Source of the DNA: Owenia fusiformis
Taxonomy: Eukaryota > Annelida > Polychaeta > Sabellida > Oweniidae
Assembly (NCBI GenBank): GCA_903813345.2
Contig: CAIIXF020000008.1
Location: 19,020,822 to 19,084,821 of the forward strand
Direction of reading: 5' to 3'
Length of the DNA: 64,000 nucleotides
Under the pieces are notes generated by a model, which saw only the letters and a list, made by a program, of their open reading frames with translations, was not told the origin of the DNA and searched no databases. The position numbers and the translations under genes were made by a program. Below, one piece after another: positions 4,997 to 48,300 of this stretch; the stretch's first letter is position 1, and each line of letters starts with the position of its first letter.

Positions 4997-6328
4997 TTAA
5001 TGTTCTCTTCTCTCATTAATTTTCCAGTCCTTCATGATGATATTCTCCTGCATATTGTATTTAGTACATATCCATTTATTTCTTGTTATAGCTTTCTTAG
5101 TATACGAATTTAGTATGTTGCTCCTGTAGCCTTGACATTGTAGTTTATTTCCCAGGCTGGTAACTCTGTTTGTTGCATCTTCCAGTTGACTGCAGATTCT
5201 TGAAATCCTTATTATTTGTGATATAAATATTCCATAAGATTGGTTTCTAGGAATATTTCCAGATAGATCAGGATATGAGACTATTTGGAAATTGAAGTTT
5301 TCCCTTTTGTCGTATAGTTTTGTAGTGATTTGTTTATTTACTATTTTCATTTGTATGTCCAGAAAAGTTGTTTCTGTATCCTTCTCATTTTCCTTGTTTA
5401 ACACTAGTTCTTCAGGATAGATGTTCTTCATATCAGGCTCATATTTGGCTTCATCTCCACCTACTGTTATCTTTTGGTTAGTTCCTCCTCTGAAGGCTTT
5501 ATCTATCACCCATTTCAGTTTTTCCTTTATGTCAGTTAGATTAATCTTTGTGTATAGTGTAGAGAAATCATACGAGGCTATGTTTCTTGCCCCGTTCCTT
5601 AAATTTACACTTTTAATGTTATCTAACATATTTTGGTTATTGTCACTGATCCACATCCTATTGGCACCTGTATAATCTTTTATCTTCTCACAGTATCTTT
5701 TGTTAGTATATTGCACTAGTTTAAGAATTTTGGTCAGTTTTTTGGCAGCTGGTTTTACAGAACTTTTCTTTGAGCCAATGATATATCTAAATTTAATTGG
5801 CTGTTTATGCATTTTAATTGTAAGATGAATCCTTGGTATAATATTTTGTTCTTCTCCCGGTTCAATCTTGAATTTTGTTTTCATCGTCTCTTTGATTTCC
5901 TCCACTATATCTTCTTCTCCTTTATCTTCTATCCTTTGATAGGTGTCACTCCCAATTTCCTCTTTAATCTTCTTTATGTAGTATTGTTTGCACATAAACC
6001 CAATATTATTTGCTGCCTTATCAATAGGTACAATGGCATATTTTTCCTTGAGTTGATTGAGTTCTTCCATAGCATTATGGTCCTTTAGTGTCTGCTTTGG
6101 ATTTTTAATATGTCTAAATTTTGTATTTTGAAGTAACTCAATCTTTTGTTTAACCTTTTCCATTACAGTATTTTTCCATTCATTTAAGTATACTTTTGAA
6201 ACTTTTTCATTTTTTGTCCAACTTATTGCATATTCATCTATTCCTTTCTTTATTTCGTCTTTCGCTTTCCTGAAGTTAATGTTTCGTTTTTCTCTATAGC
6301 CAGGACCTTTACTAAATAGCTTTCTCAA
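4997..6328 (-). pseudogene. Penelope-like retroelement reverse transcriptase, internally deleted
   Basis: A 443-codon open frame reads as a Penelope-like element (PLE) polyprotein. The N-terminal half is basic and helical, followed by AIVPIDKAANNIGFMCKQYY, then HLTIKMHKQPIKFRYIIGSK (the 'K-hydrophobic-HK-P ... R-I' block) and ASYDFSTLYTKI, the RT block with the first catalytic Asp. The expected GxPMG block and the YxDD-type block should follow, but the frame goes from WVIDKAFRGG almost directly to the post-RT segment TTFLDIQMKIVNKQITTKLY. The catalytic core is therefore missing although the frame stays open. No GIY-YIG endonuclease is seen. The family assignment is by pattern only; the copy should be inactive. 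Confidence 0.75.
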
Positions 6329-19000: not shown

Positions 19001-22000
19001 CATATGATACAAGTATAGTGATTATTAGGGATGATTCATTTATTTTAAGGATGCTACAGTCATAAAATATAACTAAATTTACCAAGACAAATGAATGAAT
19101 GCTTTGGTCTAGAACAAAATTGTTGTCTCATAATTCCATAATATCATAATCACTGTCTCTTTTATGTTTTTGAAAATGAGAAATTTTGTCATCTCATTGA
19201 TGATTTGAAAAATTATACTCAGAAATGGGTATATGAAATAGCTTCCATTTTCATATTTTGGTTTGGAAAAAGAGTTGATTTTTCAAAATCCTTTTTTGCT
19301 CAATTGAGTTTGATCTTTAAGTGCATGCCCTGAATTGTAATGGTTCTTGAATTCCTTTGTGATATCATTACCAGTCTAAGTATAGAATCAAATAGTTTAA
19401 CCAAAAATCCCTTAATAGATAATATAGACAGATACATATAAATGTCTCATGTTTTAAGACTAAGATTATTATTTTCCAAGTTAAATCAAATGGTTCATCA
19501 ATAAGATACGCCTTAGATAGACAAATATGATTAATGTGTCTCAGGTAGTATCATATCATTATTAAAATAGCTTGATGGCAATATACAGTAAAACCTGTCT
19601 AATAAAACACCTTTGTATACAATTGCACAGTTGAGACCCAGTTTGATACAGGTTAATTTTTTTTTCATTTGAACAGAATATTGATTTTTCAGTTGTTAAT
19701 TTACTTGTTATGTATTCTCAAATTAAAGCCACATTGTGCTTTAGAGATGATAAAATAGTAAAAATATATTCTGCTAGAAATCAAGCAGTGGAGGTCTACA
19801 TGACCTGTTATAAATACTAATAACTGACGTTATCATCACAAAATGTATGACATTGCTGTTTTTTAGAAATTACTTAGAAAACAATCATAAATTTACAGTG
19901 AACAGAGGGGAGAGTAATTCTAGATAGTTTATTCCCTCCCAATCTCTGTGACAATAACTTCATACATATGCATATTACAGGACATGTAGACTACCACTTG
20001 TTGATTTATAACAAAAATATTGAGTTTTTCATGCTGGTGACATTTCACTTTTTAAATAGATCTCACATCCTAATTAGAAGCATATCAGTTAAGAAAAAGA
20101 ATCCTAGAAAACCCTACAGATTTTAACATTTGAAGAAATTACCTACTCCCCTTTGTTCATTTTTTCCAAAGACCAGGCATGTACAAAATGCTTTCAATTG
20201 TGTCCTTAAAATGTTAATATTGATATGTTCATATGTCACAGGTTTTACTGTACAATGATCAATAACTACAATTATTAGTTTATTTATGTCTCCATTTTGT
20301 AGTTGTATAACAATAGCAAACCTTGGATGTAGATAATTACAGAGTAAACTACGGTCACCCCGACATCTAATATTACTTAGTTTTAAACCTATGCAGAAGA
20401 TAAATTAATAATCTTAGGATCTTCTTAAAAAGACTTGACCTAGATGTATTTCGATCACATGGACCTTGCATTGAACTTGGTGATAAAAACTTAATTGAGT
20501 TTATGTCACTATTGAAAGTGTAGCAAAAAGACGGTATTATCTAGTGCAATTTATGGGATTGCTGACATAGAGTATTACAGAGCAGTATGGAGCAGATAGA
20601 TGCACAGGTGTCTGATACAGGAGTATGTCATATTGAATTCATGTACAAAATAGGGAGCTAAATGGTAGAGTTACAGGGATCAAGTTAATAAGCATGGAGG
20701 CATCAGATAGTTAAGAAATACATAATGTAATCAGTTGGTTTGTTCCAATAATTTGGATTTTATTACAGGATGTTTCTTCACTGAATATTAGTGCATGCAT
20801 GGATTACATAATTTCTTTGTGACCTTGGTTCCAGCTTTTATAGAACTAAGAAATATGACAAATGTTTAGGCCTATAAATGCTCTTTAATTTACACTGGGC
20901 TTCCTATTTGTTGTTTTGCAGGCTGCGCCAGCACAACCAGATGTATCCAGTCCACCAGCCATTGGATCCCCAGGTTAGTTTTTTTTTCTATATTTATCCT
21001 GCATCAATCCTTCCCCCCAAGTATAGATATTGGGAGGTTAAAACAAGGGCCCGATGCAAGACATCTTTGCATCATTAAATTAATATTTTATCGCTTTATC
21101 ACTCTTGTCATGTACATTTAATGCTTTATGATTCTTGTCATGTTGATTGATTAAATAATTTTTACTATTGCAGGTTTAATCAATATTTTCTATTTCAGTT
21201 AGTATTGTTGTTATATTTAGCATATGGTTAAACTCAATTTAATATCAAGATGACATTGAGGGGACAACCGGTCTGATTCTATAATCTTGGCTTACATATA
21301 TTATAGTCTGTGTATCATGTTATTTTACATGGACACAACAGTAAAGATGTTGATGAATAAAACCAGTGAACAATTAACATCTATAGATGAAAGGTTTTAA
21401 AAACGCTCTTTTATTTATTTTAATGTGTCCAAAACACAGATGTGTAGCACAAAGAAGTCTTTTACACTGAATGTTAAACATACAGAAGTGTTTTACCCTG
21501 AATGTTTAACAGATGGATCGTTTCACTCTGAATGTTTCATATACTCGTACATAATTGTTTTACCCAGGATGTTTAACATACAGAAGTATTTTACAATGAA
21601 TATTTATATGAGTTCACAACATGAGGCACAACAAAGGTGTTCGTTTGAAGTTAATTTCTCCAATCACAGTTTTTTCTAAAAAGTCTGTCATATTTCCTTT
21701 TTTTGAATAAGGATAATGGATATCACTTGACTGCAGGATTGTTAAAACTCTCTCCTGGAATGCTATATTATATAAGGGACATTTTAGATTTTCTTATTCT
21801 AAAGATAGTATTACAATGAATAAAACAGCATAAAAGATGAAACTTTTTGCTTTCTTACGATAATCAGTTCTCATTTTATTGTCTAATTATTCATCCCTCT
21901 ATGTTCAGATATGGGGCAACCAGGGATGTTTCAACAACAACAAGGGATGCCTGACCCTCAACAAATGATGATGGACCCTCAGTTAATGGGACAGCCTCAA

Positions 22001-25000
22001 ATGATGATGTCACCACCTGGAATGGAGCAGCGCCAGATTGAACAACCGCAAATGATGGGACAACAGCAAATGATGGAACAGCAGATGATGCAGCAGCAAA
22101 TGATGGAGCAGCAGCAAATGATGGAACAGCGAAGGATGGCTGAGGAGCAGCAGCAAAGAGAACAGCAGCAGAAAATGATGGAACAGCAAAGATTAGCCGA
22201 GGAACAGCGAAGAATGGCAGAGGAGCAACAGCAAAGAGAGCAACAACAGCAAATGATGGAACAGCAAAGATTAGCAGAAGAACAGCGGAGAATGGCTGAG
22301 GAACAGCAGCAAAGAGAACATCAACAGCAAATGATGGAACAACAAAGATTAGCCGAGGAACAGCGGAGAATGGCTGAAGAGCAGCAGCAAAGAGAACAGC
22401 AACAACAAATGATGGAACAGCAAAGATTAATGGAAGAGCAAAAATTGAGGGAACAGCAGCAACAACAAATGATGGAACAGCAAAGACTTATTGAAGAGCA
22501 AAAGCAAAGAGAGCATCAGATGATGGAACAACAACGGTTAGCTGAAGAGCAGAAACAGAGGGAATTACATATGATGGAACAGCAAAGGCTTGCTGAAGAA
22601 CAAAAACAGAGGGAGCAACAGCAGGCCTTGGAGCAGCAAAGATTAATGGAAGAACAGCGTCAACGTGAGCTTCAAATGATTGAACAGCAAAGGGCCTTGG
22701 AAGAGAAACAGAAAGCAGAACAGCAAAGGCAAATAGAGGAACAGCAAAGGGCAATGGAACAGCAAAGACAAATTGAAGAGCAGAAACGGAGAGAGATGGA
22801 ACAACAAAGAATGCTTGAAGAGCAGAAGCAGAGGGAACAGCAGCAACAAATGGAACAGCAAAGAATGCAAGAGGAGCAAAGACAGAGGGAGCAGAGAGAG
22901 CAACAAGTTATGGAACAGCAAAGACTGCAAGAGGAGCAAAGACAAAGGGAGCAACAGCAAATGATTCAACAACAGAGAATAATAGAAGAACAGCGACAGA
23001 GGGAGCAACAGCAGATGATAGAGCAGCAACGTTTGATTGAAGAGCAAAAGCAGCGAGAACAGCAACACGCTTTAGAACAGCAGCATCGTCAGCAAGAGGA
23101 ACAGCAAAGAATAATGCAAGAACAGCGTATGCGAGAAGAACAGCAATTAATGGAAGAAGCCCGGCAGAGGGAAATTCAGCAACAACAATTAGAAGAGCAG
23201 AAACATCAAGAGCAACAAGCGCAACAATCTCAAGTTACTGTTGCAGCAATGCCGATACCCCCACCCAATCTCAGCATGCCTCCCCCAGGGATCCCAGCAG
23301 CCAAGCCCCCAGGGCTTCCCCAGCAGTTCCAACTTCCCCCAGGAGGTATCTCAGAGCTGAGTGAAGAGGAGAGGGTGAACCTTGCCCAGCAGCAGAGTAG
23401 ATTCCTGGAGCAGCAAGAGCAAGAGAGGATTAAGATTCAGCAACAACAACAACTACTCAAGGCAAGTTTAGATTACTTTACAAATTCTTTTTTTGGGAAG
23501 AACTCATTTATTTACATCAGTGAACAAATAAATGTTCACCATGAATTACAGAACATTACAGTCACAGAAGTCCTAGTTGGGCTAGCAACCATTTATTTAT
23601 TTCATCCACCATATTTAGTGCGTATAAGTAAGATTTTTATTATTTTACTTTCAGCTAATTACATTAACAATACCATTGGAAATTGTTATTTTGTTGGATA
23701 CAGTGCATTTTTGATATTAGTTGCATAAGTATAGCTTTGTTGGGGCAGTGAGAATTTCTTAATGTTTCGTTTTATTCATGTGTCAATCTTACCTTCCAGG
23801 AGCAAGAAAAGGCAATTGATGCTGAGTTACAGCAGAAGGTCATGCTCCAACAACAGCTACTGGAGGCTGATAAACAGCGCTCTGTGATGGAGCAGCAACG
23901 GCTGTTAGAACAGCAGAAAGAAGCATTGGCCCTTCAGCAACAAGAGTTGCTACAGCAGGAGAAGGATCGTCAACAACAACAGGCATTGCTAGCCCAGCAA
24001 CAACAGCAGCTAATGAAGGCGGCCCAGGACAGACATCTTATGGAGCTACAGCAACAGGTAGCTTCAGTTTACACTCTTAATTGTACTTTTTATGCTAGTT
24101 TGATTTTGATTATCTGTACTTGAGATTTGTATTGCAAATAAGAAATTTGGATCCAGAGATCGCCCCAGCATTAAAACAAGTGAGCTTTACTCCCACTTGA
24201 GATTTTGAAATAAGGCAAGCCCTTACCAGAAAATCAATTCGCACCTTAAACATGAGAAAATAAATACAAAAATTGGCAGATTTTGATGGGATTTTGATAT
24301 TGAAAATGTATGATGTCATGAGGATTCCGTTTATATTATGAACTAAATAAATTCACGATTTTTGACATTACCAGGCCTTACTTGAGAAGCAACGTGAAAT
24401 GGCGATCCAGAAACAACAACAAGAAGCAGAGATGCTACACCAACAGCAGATTGCATTGATAGAACGACAGAGGGAGGAACAGGAGAAGATCCAACAGCAG
24501 CAGCGTATGATATCTGAGCAACAGCAACAACAAAGATCTGGTAAAATATTAGATATTATAAGTATTTTCCCATGGTTGCAAGGATATAGATCGAATATCA
24601 CATGAAGATATATTTGATATGTGGATCAAGATAACATATTTTAGCAAAAAATTCACAAACCATCGAATATCACTTTTAAACTATTGAATATCACGTCTTA
24701 AAAAGTGATATTCAATGGTTTGAAAAGTGATATTCGATGGTTTGAAAAGTGATATTCGATGGTTTGAAAAGTGATATTCGATGGTTTGAAAAGTGATATT
24801 CGATGGTTTCGAATTTTTTCAAAAATAATTTCTTTTTACATTTTTTAATTATTTTCAAAAATATTTCCAAAACATTTCAAAATTTAAAAAAAAATGTTCA
24901 ACATTTTTTTCAAATTTTTTTCATTTTTTCAAAATTTTTCTCAAATTATGTTTTTCAAAAATTTTCGCTGATGGTGATTTTCCATGGGATAAACGGACAA

Positions 25001-36341: not shown

Positions 36342-39300
36342 ATGACAACCAGGGCTCCAATAAAACCGGAATTGTATGAAGCAATACAGAATGTCGATGT
36401 TATAAGACTTTCGCAATTCACAGATGTCGAGATCAGACCAGTTTTGCCATGTTTAGTTCGAATGTCCCTCTGTGCAACTCTGGACACAAGTGAAAGATGG
36501 ACAGAGGAAAGGAAAAGGATTTTGCAAATACTCTCTGGACAAGAAGTTGTCAATTCCCTTGTCGATCTACTTTCTGTGGACTTTCATGTTCTAGACATTG
36601 ATGTTAAAAAAGAACAGCAACTGAGGTAATGTGTCCATTTATTGAAAGACCATACCTACCCTGATAAAGCGTTTTTCAAATCACCCCCACAACTAATTGT
36701 GTATTGAGATCTATTGAAAACTTACGTTGAAAAATAATCTGAATTATTGCTTTGTGTCAACTTCTGATAACGTTCTTCAACAATCCCAAGATTCGATACA
36801 CAAGTCAACCCCACATTTATGGGGTATTTATGCCCATAGCCCACATTCCGCAGGAGAAAAGAGTACAAGCTTTAGTCTAAGTTAAAAGTCAAACAAATGA
36901 TCCATATCCATCGTCATCTAAAAACCGCAATTTATTACCTGACATTTCATAGATGATTGGTTTAGACATGGGCCATGGTTTAGAAATACAATATATAACT
37001 TTTATATATAACTTTTATTGACATCTTGTATCATAACATGATTACATTAGTCATAACTATGAAAAAACTAAATATCTAAACTACAAATACTAACTAAGGC
37101 AAAAGTACAAAAATATATACGAGATATACAAAAAAAAACAAAATAAAGGTAGTATACATCATGATGAAAGGACAAGGTTACATTTAAAGTGTGGTGCACA
37201 TACCCTGCATTCTGACTACAAATTCTTAAATGAATGATAAATGAATTTTCCAATGTGTCTTTGTAATGTTAAGTTTTTACTTGAAATGAGATTGACAAAT
37301 AAATTTTCACTATTGAGGTCAAAGTTACTTAGAATTTCACGAGCCTTAGTGTACAATAATTGTCTATGCTCATCATTCTTTGTACAAGTTAAAAGGAAAT
37401 GACATTCATCCTCTATTTGTTTACAGGTATTGCATAATCTTTCCTCTCTAGGTTTTGGTTTTGGCTTTGCATGTCTTCCAGTCTCAATCGCCAATCGATG
37501 AGAACTCATTCGAAATCTACTTATCGCCAATCTATATTTTTTATTATCTAATTTCAAATATAATTCAATTCTAAAATCTTTTTTGAACAATTTATACGTT
37601 CTCAGTATAGGATAAATGTTCAAATCATTTTTCCATTTTTCTACAAATAATACCTTCAACTTCTTTTCTACCATGCTCACTAGATTGTCAGTATTCAGAT
37701 TTTGGGCATTCCAATAATCCAATAAATCACATTTTCTGAGTATATCATAGACCTTGCTAGACCAACTTTTGAATCCTAACTCTTGAATATCTCTATCATA
37801 TAAATAGGCTTGGTTTAATACACTTGATTCTGGAAATGTTAGGAGTCTAAGCCAATATTTTATAATATAACACTCAAATTTGATTGACAATGGGTACCTG
37901 CCTAGATCGCCATACACAGCAGGGCTTGCAGTCTGTGATTTGACACCTAATGTTGACTTTAAAAAAGACAAATGTATGGATTCAATTGCTTTCATTTGTT
38001 TTTTATCATACCATATTTCACATGCATAAGATAAAATTGGACTGACCAAAGCATTAAACAGATGAAGAGCTACATCTGGTGGCACATCATTAAACTTCTT
38101 ATATTGCTGTTTTATCTTAAAAAGAGCCTTTCTTGATTGTTCTTTAAGATATTTAGTGTTCATATCAAAACTGTTGTTATTGGTGAGAATGAGACCTAAA
38201 TATTTGTATTCATTAACACATTCAATACTTTTTTCATTAAATTCAAATTTGAAAGATCTTTTGGAATTGAAGATTAATGCTTTAGTTTTCATTGTATTGA
38301 CAATTAACCTATTAGTCTTACAGAAAGCAAAAAGTGCGTCAAGTAATGTCTGCAATCCTTCACTGGATTCTGAAATCAATATGAGGTCATCTGCCCATAG
38401 AAGGTGGTTAAGCCTCTTATCATTTAAAATTACTCCACAGTGCGTTGGTAAATATAGTGCAAGATCATCTATAAAGTGATTAAATAAGAAGAATAAAATA
38501 CATCCTGATGTGATCTGCACCACTCTGGAATGTGAAACAAAAATTCTTCTGTTTTTAGGATGTCTATATTTATTGAATCTGTAAGTTGATAGATGCTATA
38601 TATTCTCTGGTGTTATAAAGGTGTAAATTGTAAATTTTGATTGCGATATGATTTTAAGGTTAGAAATGTTTTCATTATAAAGTAATCTTAATATGTTTTT
38701 AGCCCTGAAATAGAGTAGACATTGTGTTTTATATTATCTAACTAGTAACAGACCTTCTAGAAAGTTCATGGTTCGTGTATCTCACTAATTCCAGGACTAA
38801 AATTGGTGGCCAACAGACTGACAGTGTACTGATATCACAACTACAGCATGGTCTTGCCTTGGAATTTGAGCGAAGTAGCGCAGCGAGAAAACTCCGCCTT
38901 TTTCTGAGTGAGCTTTTGTTTATAATGGGCCAGATGAGAGAATCAACAAGGACTGAGTTCTACCACAAATCTTCGGAATTGTTTGAGAGTGAAGCCTATC
39001 TTGAGGAGGTGTCTGATGTGCTCTGTATTGCACAAGCAGGTAAAATTTTTACCCACCCAAGGGCACTCACTGGAACATTACATTGTGTCAGTTTGCCAAT
39101 TTCCAATCACATACATTCATGATTTATCTTGAGGCATAAAAGATGTTCTATATTATTTATTATGCCTTGACCTGGCCCTTAAATATTTTATCACGCACAT
39201 TGTCATATAGGCACCACCTTTAAAAACTACAGTATGCTATTTGATGTTTGAAATTAAGAACAGAAAATAGAAATAAGACATTGTGCAGCATCAGCAAATG

Positions 39301-42300: not shown

Positions 42301-45300
42301 TATACTACACTAATAGTCTTATGGTAGTGTAACTAGTTGATATGGATACATGGTACATCATACTCATGCTATTACAGGTATTGCATCATTGAAGGCAGTT
42401 GATATGGATACATGGTACATCATACTCATGCTATTACAGGTATTGCATCATTGAAGGCAGTTGATATGGATACATGGTACATCATACTCATGCTATTACA
42501 GGTATTGCATCATTGAAGGCAGTTGATATGGATACATGGTACATCATACTCATGCTATTACAGGTATTGCATCATTGAAGGCAGTTGATATGGATACATG
42601 GTACATCATACTCATGCTATTACAGGTATTGCATCATTGAAGGCAGTTGATATGGATACATGGTACATCATACTCATGCTATTACAGGTATTGCATCATT
42701 GAAGGCAAGTGATGAAGAGGTGAAGCTGTTATTACGTTTAGTGACATGTCATCCTCCACCAACAAATACTGGAGCACAGTTTGTGTGTCTTGGGCTTTGT
42801 ATGTTATTGGCCTGCCCCTTTCTTCTTGCGTAAGTAACACATCCTAATACTACATGTAAAGAATAACAGTGGATATGATTTGAGGTTTTTTTAAGTGACA
42901 GGTTTTCACCACTCGTTTTACTCACATGGTATCTGTTCTTTTATCAATAGATTTTGTTGCCATTAATTAGACAATTACAGATCATACATGAAGGACCCAA
43001 TCGCCAGTGGCATTATAGGCATCCCCCAGTGTAGTATTTACAAATTTTTAACATTGGGGTCAACAGAAACTTCGTAAAGTTAGGAATTCGTTAATCAATT
43101 GTTGTAACCATGGATATAATGATGTCACAGTAGAGAACAATGAAGTTTATGAATTCTTAAAGGCAGGGCTCCACTATAAAAGCAGAATGTCAGTTAAAAA
43201 TGATGTAATATCATGTTTGAAAGTTTAAATGTCCAGAGAAACTAGCACCTCAGACAAGTTTTTCCACATATCTCTAGTGTTTCTGTATAGAATCAGCTGA
43301 CATTTGTCACAGCTATTCATGAATATGTTCTGAATCTGACAGTAGTTTTAGTTTTCATATTTTTTTTCTTATTTGGCTTAAAAATGTAAATCAAAATTTA
43401 AAACTGTTGGAAATAATTTTGAAAATGAGGAGGGGCTTATCTATCCAGCAGCCAATCAAATACCGAGTTGTGATCATGTGATATTGGTAAACAGAAGCAC
43501 ATGGCATTAAATGTAAACAGTTTAGTTGTAGTGTAAGATGTTATTTTGTGAAGTACTTACCATAATCAAGCATTATTCCATATAATTCAGATTGCGCATG
43601 GTAATAATCCATTTTTTGATTATCCAAGTGGGAATATATTATCCATAACCTTTTCCCAAATCAAAGATTTGTACTGAAATGTTACTGGCTTTAGATTCTT
43701 CCTGGTCTGAATGATTAGGTTTTCATCCCTCTTTTCCCAGGTACTGGTAAAGTCCCGATCAACATTCTCATTCCAGTGCAGTATTGTTAAATTCGTCCTC
43801 ATTTCATACTGTTCTTTGCCAAAAACTATACGTTTATCATGAAAAACATTTAATACGTTATTGAAGCTTTCAACATAGAAAGTATCTAGCGCATTAGTGT
43901 AGTTCTGGGCCTGTCTATACACAATAGACTTTCTTATAGCTGTGCGGAACAAATCCTCAGCTACCGGGTCCCTTATTATGATATACCTAATTTGGTAATT
44001 AGGATCTGTTCTGCATCTTGATTGCGGGTCACAGTGATGATGAATGTTTTTAAAATGGCACAATATATTATCCAGCTGGTCACGTAGTTGGGCTTCATTG
44101 TTGTTACAATTTCTCACAGCCCAGTGAAACTGTTTTTGCACTGGGATGACTTTGTCTGAGAGTTCCATGTGCCAAGTCTGTCCATGACTATACTGTGGGC
44201 CCTTTCCTACTTTCTCTATTTCCTTCTTTAGGGATTTGCCACCATGCCATGTGTCATTTTGATTTGTTGTGCCATCTCGTTCGCGTACAAATTTATTAAC
44301 AGATTGGTTCGCATCATGTGCATGAACTTTTATATTAATGCCTTTCTCATCAAAAAAGTCATACAGTTGTCTGGTACCAACCATCTCGTGGCGTTGTGGT
44401 ATAGGATCATCAGCCTTTGTAATATGCACGCTTTTCAAAACTTTGTGGGAGCTTAGACCAATGCATACTATATCACAGTCATTTGCATTCTTACGCCACC
44501 CATGACGTGCATCAGTCATAATAGATATCCCATCTTGTAGTTCATCTGGGTCTAGATGAGCAAACTCAGTGACAAATGCTTCCTCGCAGGATGCTGTCAT
44601 ACAATGTTCCACTTGCTGGGCAAAAAGTTGTGTCATGTCTTTCTGCTTACGCTTACTTATATGGCCAAAATCTGCAGTCTTTGACAAATTGTCATACTGA
44701 TTCGGTAACATTCCAGAAGTGATATATCCCTGAAAAATTTGATAATTCACCAAGCTTTGGCCATTTGGAAGTGTTGGTGATGATTTCCATCTGACCTGAT
44801 GATCAAAATCACATTTCAGGTGCACTAAGGCAGCGTGACCATGGAAACTGTGTTCATTCCATGATAATAGGGAGTTGCAGGTAGCACTATGTGCTGCAAG
44901 AGTGTTTATTAGCTTCTCTGTTGCTGATTTTGTTGTCAAGAACATAGGTTCAAGTGTATTGTCCCTCTCCACTGGTGTGTACTCATATACATCAGGCCCA
45001 TTTGAATGTTTTTCAACATCGTTTTCATTTTGAACATTATGTAAGATCCAAAAGTCTAAAACAGTTTCAAGTGCAACAGCAGTTGAAACATTAACATCAG
45101 ATTTTAATTTTTCCTTCACCGTTTTCATCTTTTTACGAAACCTATCTTTGATTGTTTCATCTCCTTGTACCTCTATATTAAAATATGGGGTACGTTTTCT
45201 TGGTTTTTTAGCTTCAGACATTGTCACCTTCTTTCATTGCATGCAACTCAAATAAGTCAAGTTTTACATCATTCCATGGTATGTTTCCTTCAAACACTAG

Positions 45301-48300
45301 AATGGCTGTACCATTTGATATTTGGAGAATATTTATAATATGAAGAAAGATGAAACTACATTTTCAATGAAGTTGAAATGCGATTGCGATTACATTACGT
45401 AGGTTGTATTTTAAGATGCAGAATTATTCATCTTTCCTTACAATATCCATCGCATATCTAAGAGTTATAGATATACAACATAATCATCGAACGATGAAAA
45501 TGATTGTGAAGATTATAAACTGAGATGTTTCGATTCCTGACTTCCAAATGGTACACCCATGGTTGACACATATGATTTCTATAATTGTTGGTCTTACTTG
45601 ATCAGAAACACTCCTCTATGCCCCTTGGGCATTTCTAACATGACATGAAAGCATATTTTGGATAACTTCTCCACCACAATTTCCAAACATAGTATCATAA
45701 TTGTAATTCATGACATTCTTATCTACAAGCATGAAATTGGAATGGGTTGGCATGTAACATAGACAGAGGGGTGATACACATATTTAGAATTGTTCTATCA
45801 GGGTGACTTGTCCCAAAATTGAATCTATCCTACTATGTTGAAATGGTCCCTATGATTAATTTTTCATGTTTGAAATCAGAAATCAGATGTTTTGTATCTG
45901 TCATCCATGTGTAACCCCCAGGATTGAGTTGACTAACACCTATTGGTACTGTCTAAATACATAGGGTTTACCCTTGTCATATTGCATGAAGTCAAAACCT
46001 CCTAGACAATTTGAAACATGTCGAAACAGTCCTGTTGACTTGCATGTCCAAAGAGATTGTATTATACTTGATACACCACCCAGAAATATTAGCCTAGATA
46101 CCCTAGACAGATAGCAGATCATCATCTGAACATACCAACACTGTCTTTTTGATACTAATTATAGTATATAATATAAATAATGTCAGTCACATCTAAAAAG
46201 ATAGTATCTTTTCGTCTCACTAAAACACAAGAAAGGGCTATTGCTGAACTTTTTAAAACAAAAAAGTGGAAACTTGACAAACCAACACCTGATGATGTTC
46301 TGAACAGCATTACTTATCAGGATAATGAGTCTGAACCCACACCACCTTCACCCCCAGGCCCAGATGACCCAGAGAGTGAAGATGAGACAGATGATCCAAC
46401 TAGATGTCGACACTGCCTGCAGGATCCCTGCATCACAGATACCACAAATGAGCAAAATAGTTGGTGGCCTGCTACAAACTATGGAGCAATGATTGAAAAT
46501 AGTAAATTCAGAAAAACAATGTACAAGTCATTTTGGGGACTTCTTCACAATAGAGGACTATGGCAGACAAAAAAGTACCAAGCCAGAAAAAAGAGAGCTC
46601 TGGAACAATACCCAAACTTCAGGAACTTGATTAGTTGCAGAAGAGAACTCATGCCAAACTGTGTAATTGAAAAGGTTAGGGAATGGTACCCTAACCCAGG
46701 TGGAGTTGCATATCTTGGACACACCTGGGAATAATTTCCTGTTAATTAATGAAATAAACAATACTGCCCAATGGATAAGATATTAAAATATTTGGATAAA
46801 TACAATACTGTCTAGGATAAAATATTTAACCTTTTTGATGAATAAACAGCATGCACAATGATATAGTAAGTAAAACATTTTGTAGTGCTCTTAGTATTGC
46901 CATGTGCTAATGTTTACCTCCCATGATGCTTAGCAAGCAGTTAAATGATTGGCTGAATCAAAATGGGGGAGTGGTTTAATTTACCAGGGGGTAATGAAAT
47001 CCTGCCTTTAAGTTTACAAAGTTTCTGTTAATGGCCCCCATGTAAATAGATATAGCATTGATACAGTTCATTGATCTTCTTCAATACATTTGTTCAGCAT
47101 GGGGTCATTAACAGAAACTTTCTAAAGTTACTAATTCATAAATCAATTGTTGTTACCATGGATAAAATGATGTTACAGTAAGAGAACAATGGATTTTACG
47201 AATTCTCATCTTTATGAAGTTTCTGTTAATGGCCCCATGGTTATATGATTATATATAAAAAGATGTAAAAGAAAAAAAAAGTATCATTAATTGGAGTGTG
47301 GTAGACTGCTGCCTATGGGGTCCTGGGAACAAAGATATAATAAATTGGGTAAGAAAATGAGGTAAACACCATAGTCTGTCGTCCATGCCTGAAACAAGTG
47401 GCTTATCTGCAGCTATGGGTGGATTTGTACAAAGTAGATGAAGATTTGCTGGAATGTTGAAAAAGAAGGAAACATGAAGACGAGAGCAATAGAAATGAGA
47501 GCAATAGAAAACAATACTGATAAAACCTTCCCTTTCAAGTATCTGTGCATTGGTCTCCATCCTTGATTCTTTTTATCTTACCTTAAGAAAGGTGCGATAA
47601 TGTTGTCGGCTTGTCTTACAATTGTATTGCAATGCATAGGCAATTAACATTTCTCACACATTTATTAATATCTCAGGAACAGTTTTTTAAATCAACCCAG
47701 TGAATGTAGTTCATGAGGGATATTGAGATGCTGTTCGTCTGTATGTCTGTCCAGGTGATAATTCTAATACCGGTTAAAGGCTGATGCCTTATGAGCATAG
47801 GACCTCTCATCTAGAAATAATTTGTTATATGTAGGGGTTTCATTAGAAGCAGGCAATAGGTGAATATCACTGGTTGTTTTCACAAAATTGCCTGTTGTTG
47901 TAGGGACTTTTCAACTTTTGCCTGTTGTTTTCATTTATTTAGCCTGTTGTGAGAAATTATACTAAAACCCTTGATGCAGCTCAAATCAAAATGGCCACCA
48001 CATTTTTTTTACAAAATAATAGTTGATAATTAAAATGCCAGAAGACCGTTTTAGTTCAAATTTTATAGATGATTTACAGCTATGCACATTGTACAGTATG
48101 ATATTTACAGTAATGTTTCTGTGCATTGTGTTATTTACAGTAATTTACATGTACAGTGTGATATTTTCTAGGACACCCGATCAAGAGAGGGTTGCAATAG
48201 ACTGGATCAAATGGCTTGTCAAAGAAGAAGCATATTTTGAAAAGTAAGTTTTTTTATCATGTACTTATTGTTAAAGAAAATGTGTTTAGAAATGCTGGTT

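Follow-up and report, generated by a model that had tools for sequence, protein, structure and literature searches.

Does the small protein encoded beside a transposase in the genome of the annelid Owenia fusiformis belong to the family of the P2X7 receptor's cytoplasmic domain, and what might such a protein do for a transposon? The question arises from a stretch of 64,000 nucleotides of contig CAIIXF020000008.1 (the window), in which a first-pass annotation had described a TTAA-flanked element with AGGCAGG termini that encodes a DDE transposase and a divergent partner protein. The locus is probably an intact, autonomous, TTAA-specific Kolobok transposon devoid of a THAP domain, and its partner a reduced relative of the protein KolX that most likely serves as a transposase cofactor. 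KolX of the Kol0 lineage was reported to be similar to residues 476-595 of human P2X7, a receptor described as arising from a P2X4-like gene and KolX, and Nanor was considered a likely domesticated KolX (Kojima & Bao 2022, PMC9587614). The transposon source of the P2X7 tail, which the first-pass annotation put forward, is thus already published, and on this point the present analysis is a confirmation rather than a discovery.

The boundaries of the element (Table 1) are well defined. The window contains exactly two occurrences of TTAAAGGCAGG, one per strand and both at the element ends; the expectation in shuffled sequences is 0.03, and 1 of 100 shuffles had two or more. The terminal inverted repeat is imperfect (21 nt, 81%). 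The element is nested in a palindromic repeat resembling a miniature inverted-repeat transposable element (43041-43160 and 47012-47041), a second copy of which adjoins on the right (47086-47245). The element flanks, joined through a single TTAA, align to a part of this neighbouring copy with 125 of 150 columns identical and no gap at the junction, the gaps lying elsewhere; the neighbouring copy is a paralogous empty site of the element. The presence of TTAAAGGCAGG at both ends together with this empty site bears out the TTAA-flanked element as first annotated.

A DNA search of the genome (498 Mb) yielded the window element as the sole full-length match. All counts from the genome searches refer to match rows rather than loci, as some loci contribute two or three rows, and are lower bounds. 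Twenty-seven of the 42 DNA-search rows fall within element bases 1-248, two of them beside transposase pieces on C3. Five such places were read. Four contain 330-bp TTAA-flanked derivatives (L043-L046), each composed of the transposase-side end (252 bp with its TTAA) and the 76-bp partner-side end, and the fifth (L047) holds both ends approximately 2.3 kb apart. Because the derivatives carry both ends, these ends are real and have been mobilised, and the 97.6-99.1% identity of L044-L046 to L043 suggests that the 330-bp forms moved fairly recently. Copies of sister subfamilies (L007/L008, L012/L013, L015/L016) are 99.0-99.5% identical up to the TTAA and differ in their flanks. At a distance of 14 nt inside the transposase-side end, TATAAAAG is present in four of five subfamilies and TATTTAAA in the fifth (L005), and none of nine copies (window, L005-L008, L012, L013, L015, L016) has TATAAAAG in the outermost 42 nt on the partner side. 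With the box on the transposase side only, the ends are asymmetric, and it is perhaps a transposase-binding box. The spacer that separates the two start codons is likely to be a promoter region shared by the two genes.

Table 1 Features of the element, in window coordinates.
Feature	Position	Strand	Basis
Left TTAA target-site duplication	43157..43160	.	Sequence; paralogous empty site
Complete Kolobok-superfamily DNA transposon, 3847 bp, AGGCAGG / CCTGCCT ends	43161..47007	.	Ends, repeats, empty site, genome search
Terminal region on the transposase side, retained by internally deleted derivatives; TATAAAAG starts 14 nt inside the end	43161..43408	+	Genome DNA-search rows, derivatives
533-aa DDE transposase	43620..45221	-	PF20700 (E 8e-9); D237, D303, D323xxH326, Glu of YVES
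958-bp spacer separating two divergent start codons	45222..46179	.	Open reading frame list
184-aa KolX-related partner; Cys 76, 79, 84, 161; P2X7-domain-like C-terminal motif at ~153-181	46180..46734	+	Open reading frame, alignments, profiles
Terminal region on the partner side; together with its TTAA it forms the 76-bp end of the four 330-bp derivatives	46936..47007	+	
Right TTAA target-site duplication	47008..47011	.	Sequence; paralogous empty site

The larger gene encodes a transposase of the DDE type, as first annotated, with a length of 533 rather than 535 residues. Its match to the Mutator-like Pfam family PF20700 lies over the cut-off. In an alignment with ten relatives from the same genome, D237, D303 and H326 are present in 11 of 11 sequences and D323 in ten. 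The glutamate of the YVES motif is found in the window transposase and seven others, and is replaced by lysine in L022; L036 and L042 do not properly reach the position. Between DxxH and this glutamate, where zinc-finger H/C residues are expected in Kolobok transposases, a candidate H...H..C pattern occurs in the window type, L019, L022 and L035 and is partly different in L024. Kolobok elements are characterized by a DDE transposase with C/DxxH between the second D and E and by 5'-RR and YY-3' termini (PMC9587614). The window element exhibits both, in addition to the TTAA duplication, and its AG...CT termini recur in eight sister copies. No Pfam THAP domain was detected in the window transposase, and none of the 38 close window-type pairs described below, divergent and convergent, has a THAP match within 15 kb. 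The element thus departs from the usual form with its THAP DNA-binding domain. As Kolobok transposases are stated to have this domain "usually" (PMC6004289), its lack excludes the typical form and not the superfamily. The proportion of synonymous differences (pS) exceeds that of nonsynonymous differences (pN) in 10 of 10 transposase pairs tested, with pS near saturation. A sister family comprising L012, L013 and ten further places accounts for 12 transposase rows at 44-45% identity to the window transposase; L012 and L013 are 99.4% identical with complete 545-aa transposase frames, and this family looks recently amplified.

The partner and the transposase are kept together genome-wide, beyond chance. 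Thirty-eight of 50 partner rows lie at most 3 kb from a transposase row, 27 in divergent and 11 in convergent orientation, and the survey of relatives for which the first-pass annotation had called therefore supports retention of the pair. One of the remaining partner rows is 6.7 kb from a transposase row and 11 have none. Conversely, 33 of 38 transposase rows that span at least 1 kb have a partner row within 3 kb. Of the five that remain, two (L036 and L038) contain a diverged partner recognized by profile, one has a partner at 6.7 kb, and one (L024) lies 0.5 kb from a canonical P2RX7_C match; no partner was found in the 6 kb fetched for L035, nor in L037, a shorter relative of L035. Again, pS exceeds pN in 21 of 21 partner pairs; ratios are omitted because pS is near saturation.

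The partner frame carries cysteines at positions 76, 79, 84, 153 and 161 and a tryptophan pair at 95-96, in agreement with the CxxC-x4-CIT, WW pair and two later cysteines of the original description. Six diverged partners with complete frames share Cys 76, 79, 84 and 161, along with His 78, Trp 96, Trp 119, Trp 128, Arg 167, Pro 171, Tyr 178 and Gly 180, and vary at Cys 153. In a wider set of 12 partners that includes damaged and partial sequences, L011 and L017 are without the first cysteine and L010 has lost a stretch with the third. Four invariant cysteines would suffice for one zinc site, compared with two reported in P2X7. The search of Pfam with the window partner gave only Fer4_11, below the cut-off and taken as a chance match of the CxxC type; NCBIfam gave no match, and none of 21 pattern matches in IMG/VR contigs was confirmed.

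The P2X7 domain and its spread in animals were defined by Rump et al. 2020 (PMC7016195), and the corresponding Pfam family, PF20478 (P2RX7_C), gives 51 match rows in this genome. Comparison of the partner with these canonical sequences relied on alignments from fetched loci. Eighteen (L005-L022) of 20 regions hold a window-type partner, and five of them form alignment A1 together with the window sequence; near-duplicates (L006, L008, L012, L016), broken or partial frames (L010, L011, L014, L017) and intron-split convergent partners (L018-L022) were left out. Alignment A3 adds L010, L011, L017, L018, L019 and L021. The canonical set A2 comprises six of the 12 P2RX7_C loci then fetched; a nine-member set used for the larger profile-profile test adds L025, L026 and L034, while L024, L028 and L032 are in neither.

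A profile of the six canonical open reading frames (ORFs) finds P2X7 chains in the PDB (E 9.6e-10), which anchors this genome's canonical ORFs to the receptor. When 1373 ORFs from the window and the loci were searched with a profile of eight non-canonical partner sequences, members of the profile's own family came first and canonical ORFs next; nine of ten distinct unbroken canonical loci (E 2e-4 to 0.15) ranked ahead of all decoys, the best of which stood at 0.49. In the opposite direction, the canonical profile over the same ORFs placed partners L014 (1.7e-7), L005 (3e-6), L012/L013 (2e-4), L010, L011 and L006-L009 (0.001-0.005) and the window partner (0.017) above its first decoy (0.51). 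None of the shuffled sequences reported reached the score of any of the six partners tested; between 416 and 499 of 500 shuffles were reported per sequence, and the unreported ones are left uncounted. Profile-profile comparison gave an E of 6.7e-4 over 27 columns, and with the larger sets a score of 35 against a maximum of 20.6 in 200 column shuffles. By its order and look, the CxHC-x4-CIT cluster appears to correspond to the second cysteine cluster of P2X7. Judged from the profiles of its C-terminal part, the partner is probably a distant relative of the cytoplasmic (ballast/ZCD) domain of P2X7. The claim of the first-pass annotation that the partner belongs to the P2X7-domain family is thus partly supported, by profile rankings in both directions, by shuffles and by a chain through canonical ORFs of the same genome to P2X7. 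It is curtailed by the lack of a direct Pfam or PDB match, by an alignment confined to the C-terminal part and by the absence of the first cysteine cluster.

A number of results weigh against this kinship and against the cofactor role built on it. The window partner has no reported match to Pfam P2RX7_C at E up to 10, falling short of the PF20478 cut-off, and only one of six partner family members matches it, at E 0.17. In the PDB, no P2X7 chain was retrieved by the family profiles at E up to 10 or by phmmer with the window partner. The partner profile misses the L023 type (-0.4 bits). With the canonical profile, L015/L016 reach only 0.36, just before the first decoy, L017 (3.5) ranks below decoys, and the convergent partners with an intron-split frame go undetected, at E 28 or worse. 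The window partner exceeds its shuffles by a small margin only (11.5 against a maximum of 10.3 bits), as does L015 (7.2 against 6.5). The HH-suite probability is low (27%) in the smaller profile-profile comparison and modest (49%) with the larger sets. The aligned part covers 26-55 C-terminal columns only, and the relationship of the cysteine cluster is accordingly supported by its order and the "CIT" rather than by statistics. The three clusters and seven or eight cysteines of the P2X7 domain are also incompletely represented, with cluster 1 absent and four cysteines invariant. Finally, no functional study of KolX was found among the matches listed in literature on KolX, Kolobok, the P2X7 ballast and nanor, which agrees with the earlier remark that a cofactor of this kind had never been studied. 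The sole PDB match of the family profiles, a designed protein (E 0.0059 and 5e-6), arises through N-terminal profile positions 7-42 and was rejected as an artefact.

Three types of Kolobok can be distinguished in this genome. Of the 51 canonical P2RX7_C rows, ten lie within 8 kb of a Kolobok transposase match in convergent orientation, or 15 when same-strand matches are included, as counted with 19 + 8 transposase-search rows. Random placement, confined to the 12 largest contigs and not allowing for several rows at one locus, gave 0.04 on average and at most 2. A convergent THAP match lies within 15 kb of ten of the 51 rows, with two more on the same strand, and the THAP match and the transposase at canonical loci may represent exons of one gene. 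The transposase of one canonical-type locus, L024, is 23% identical to that of the window (E 3e-6). In a FastTree phylogeny of 11 transposases, which is unrooted, built from few sequences of this genome only and includes two partial ones, L024 groups with L042 (support 1.000), the convergent THAP-less type groups with L035 (0.989), and the divergent type is split off with a support of 0.998. Rooting on the L024 side would make the convergent order ancestral and imply a flip in the window lineage. The convergent partner frames of L018 and L019 appear by eye to be broken after ITK as if by an intron, and that of the window is unbroken. Four P2RX7_C rows of nearly equal score (L023, also in L041; L028; C1:18767236; C1:43470291) have a convergent THAP match 8-9.5 kb away. 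L023 and L028 were read and contain nearly identical 230-aa frames with seven or eight cysteines, and these rows likely represent a recently active canonical Kolobok family with a full KolX.

In the mechanism proposed here, both genes would be read outward from the shared spacer, and the DDE transposase would excise the element at its TTAA ends and reinsert it. The partner, its fold presumably stabilised by one zinc ion bound through the four cysteines, would bind the transposase core or the element ends and help in assembly of the complex or in nuclear entry. Such a cofactor role, the most likely one, is modelled on the Myb-like protein of Harbinger, which is described to interact with the Harbinger transposase, to enable the two proteins to enter the nucleus together and to bind the element ends (PMC9179366). 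The possibility that the partner substitutes for the missing THAP domain was considered and set aside. At least ten canonical P2RX7_C matches in this genome have a convergent THAP match nearby, and because elements with THAP and elements lacking it both retain a KolX-related protein, such a substitution is improbable.

A partner of the same family might instead regulate the element or act on the host, for example in escape from silencing or in nucleotide sensing as proposed for the P2X7 ballast. Nothing computed here separates this from the cofactor reading, and the invariant Arg 167, matched by eye, corresponds to R578; conservation of the guanosine diphosphate (GDP) contacts of rat P2X7 among invertebrate ZCDs is reported to be only partial (PMC7016195). 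That the partner stays with the transposase in two gene orders, and in types with and without THAP, suggests a task linked to the transposase core without proving it, and a role other than that of a cofactor appears unlikely. Less likely again is an unrelated small zinc protein that came to resemble the P2X7 C-terminus by convergence. The short alignment, the missing first cluster, the lack of a direct Pfam or PDB match to P2X7, the modest HH-suite probabilities and the failure of the canonical profile to find the convergent-lineage partners would all fit convergence, and against it stand the rankings above decoys in both directions, the column shuffles (0 of 200) and reported sequence shuffles (none for each of six sequences), and the fact that the same type of partner gene adjoins homologous transposases.

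Two further explanations concern the nature of the pair itself. KolobokP elements likewise encode, on the strand opposite the transposase, a small protein containing Cys and His (PMC9587614), and the partner could on that ground be read as a His-Me nuclease of the I-PpoI kind. The long terminal direct repeats and the His-Me nuclease of that type are both lacking here: no long direct repeats occur inside the element, no homing endonuclease is among the PDB matches at E up to 10, no His-Me motif was seen by eye in the conserved columns of six partners, and the profile points to P2RX7_C. The assignment to KolobokP is accordingly rejected as highly improbable. Chance adjacency of the partner ORF and the transposase is contradicted by the pairing counts (38 of 50) and by the excess of pS over pN in all 21 partner pairs, and may practically be dismissed.

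A further proposal may be offered tentatively, with rather more doubt than confidence: the partner of THAP-less Koloboks may be the P2X7 ballast in a minimal form with one zinc, representing the conserved functional core of KolX, kept across the flip in gene order. In that case P2X7 would have a first cysteine cluster and a second zinc that are separable additions or losses, the original task of the domain would have been assistance to a DDE transposase, and a transposition cofactor would have been repurposed as the P2X7 tail. The compact intact element, with its short unbroken partner gene and four-cysteine core, offers a convenient system for studying the role of the domain in a transposon. 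The three types found side by side (THAP nearby with a 7-Cys KolX; THAP-less convergent; THAP-less divergent) allow the shared core to be told apart from the remaining parts.

Elsewhere in the window, the ORFs at 4997-6163 (-) and 37216-38292 (-) are presumably retroelement pieces, judging by eye from their appearance. A 605-aa ORF at 21911-23728 (+) consists mostly of repeats rich in Gln, Met, Arg and Glu.

The element can be placed among several known systems. Harbinger, with its Myb-like protein, is likewise a two-protein DNA transposon in which a small partner is kept with the transposase; the protein families are unrelated as far as Pfam shows, and the analogy is one of function only. A few piggyBac families were reported to carry a KolX-like C-terminal part without most of the seven cysteines (PMC9587614), and such proteins, compared by description only, resemble the partner in these respects and in the TTAA target. 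They differ in that the window transposase is of the Kolobok type with AG...CT ends. The P2X7 ballast/ZCD itself shares with the partner the CIT after a cysteine pair and, by eye, the PxC(x4)[VI]R(x2)[FYW]P...YxG[FH] motif. In contrast, its first cluster, WCxCxxC, is missing from the partner, and the window protein gives no direct significant match. The canonical-type loci of this genome have a convergent THAP match (ten of 51 P2RX7_C rows) and a partner of the form CxCxxC...CC...CIT...PSC, whereas the window element is THAP-less, with an unbroken partner frame, divergent gene order and four invariant cysteines instead of seven or eight. This combination, a variant without THAP and with reduced cysteines, an intronless partner frame and divergent order, was not seen in the published descriptions at hand, and Repbase may already catalogue the reduced variant. 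The closest published counterpart is Kol0 with KolX, as described by Kojima & Bao, with which the window element shares the TTAA duplication, the 5'-RR/YY-3' ends, a DDE transposase with DxxH and, probably, a second protein related to the C-terminus of P2X7.

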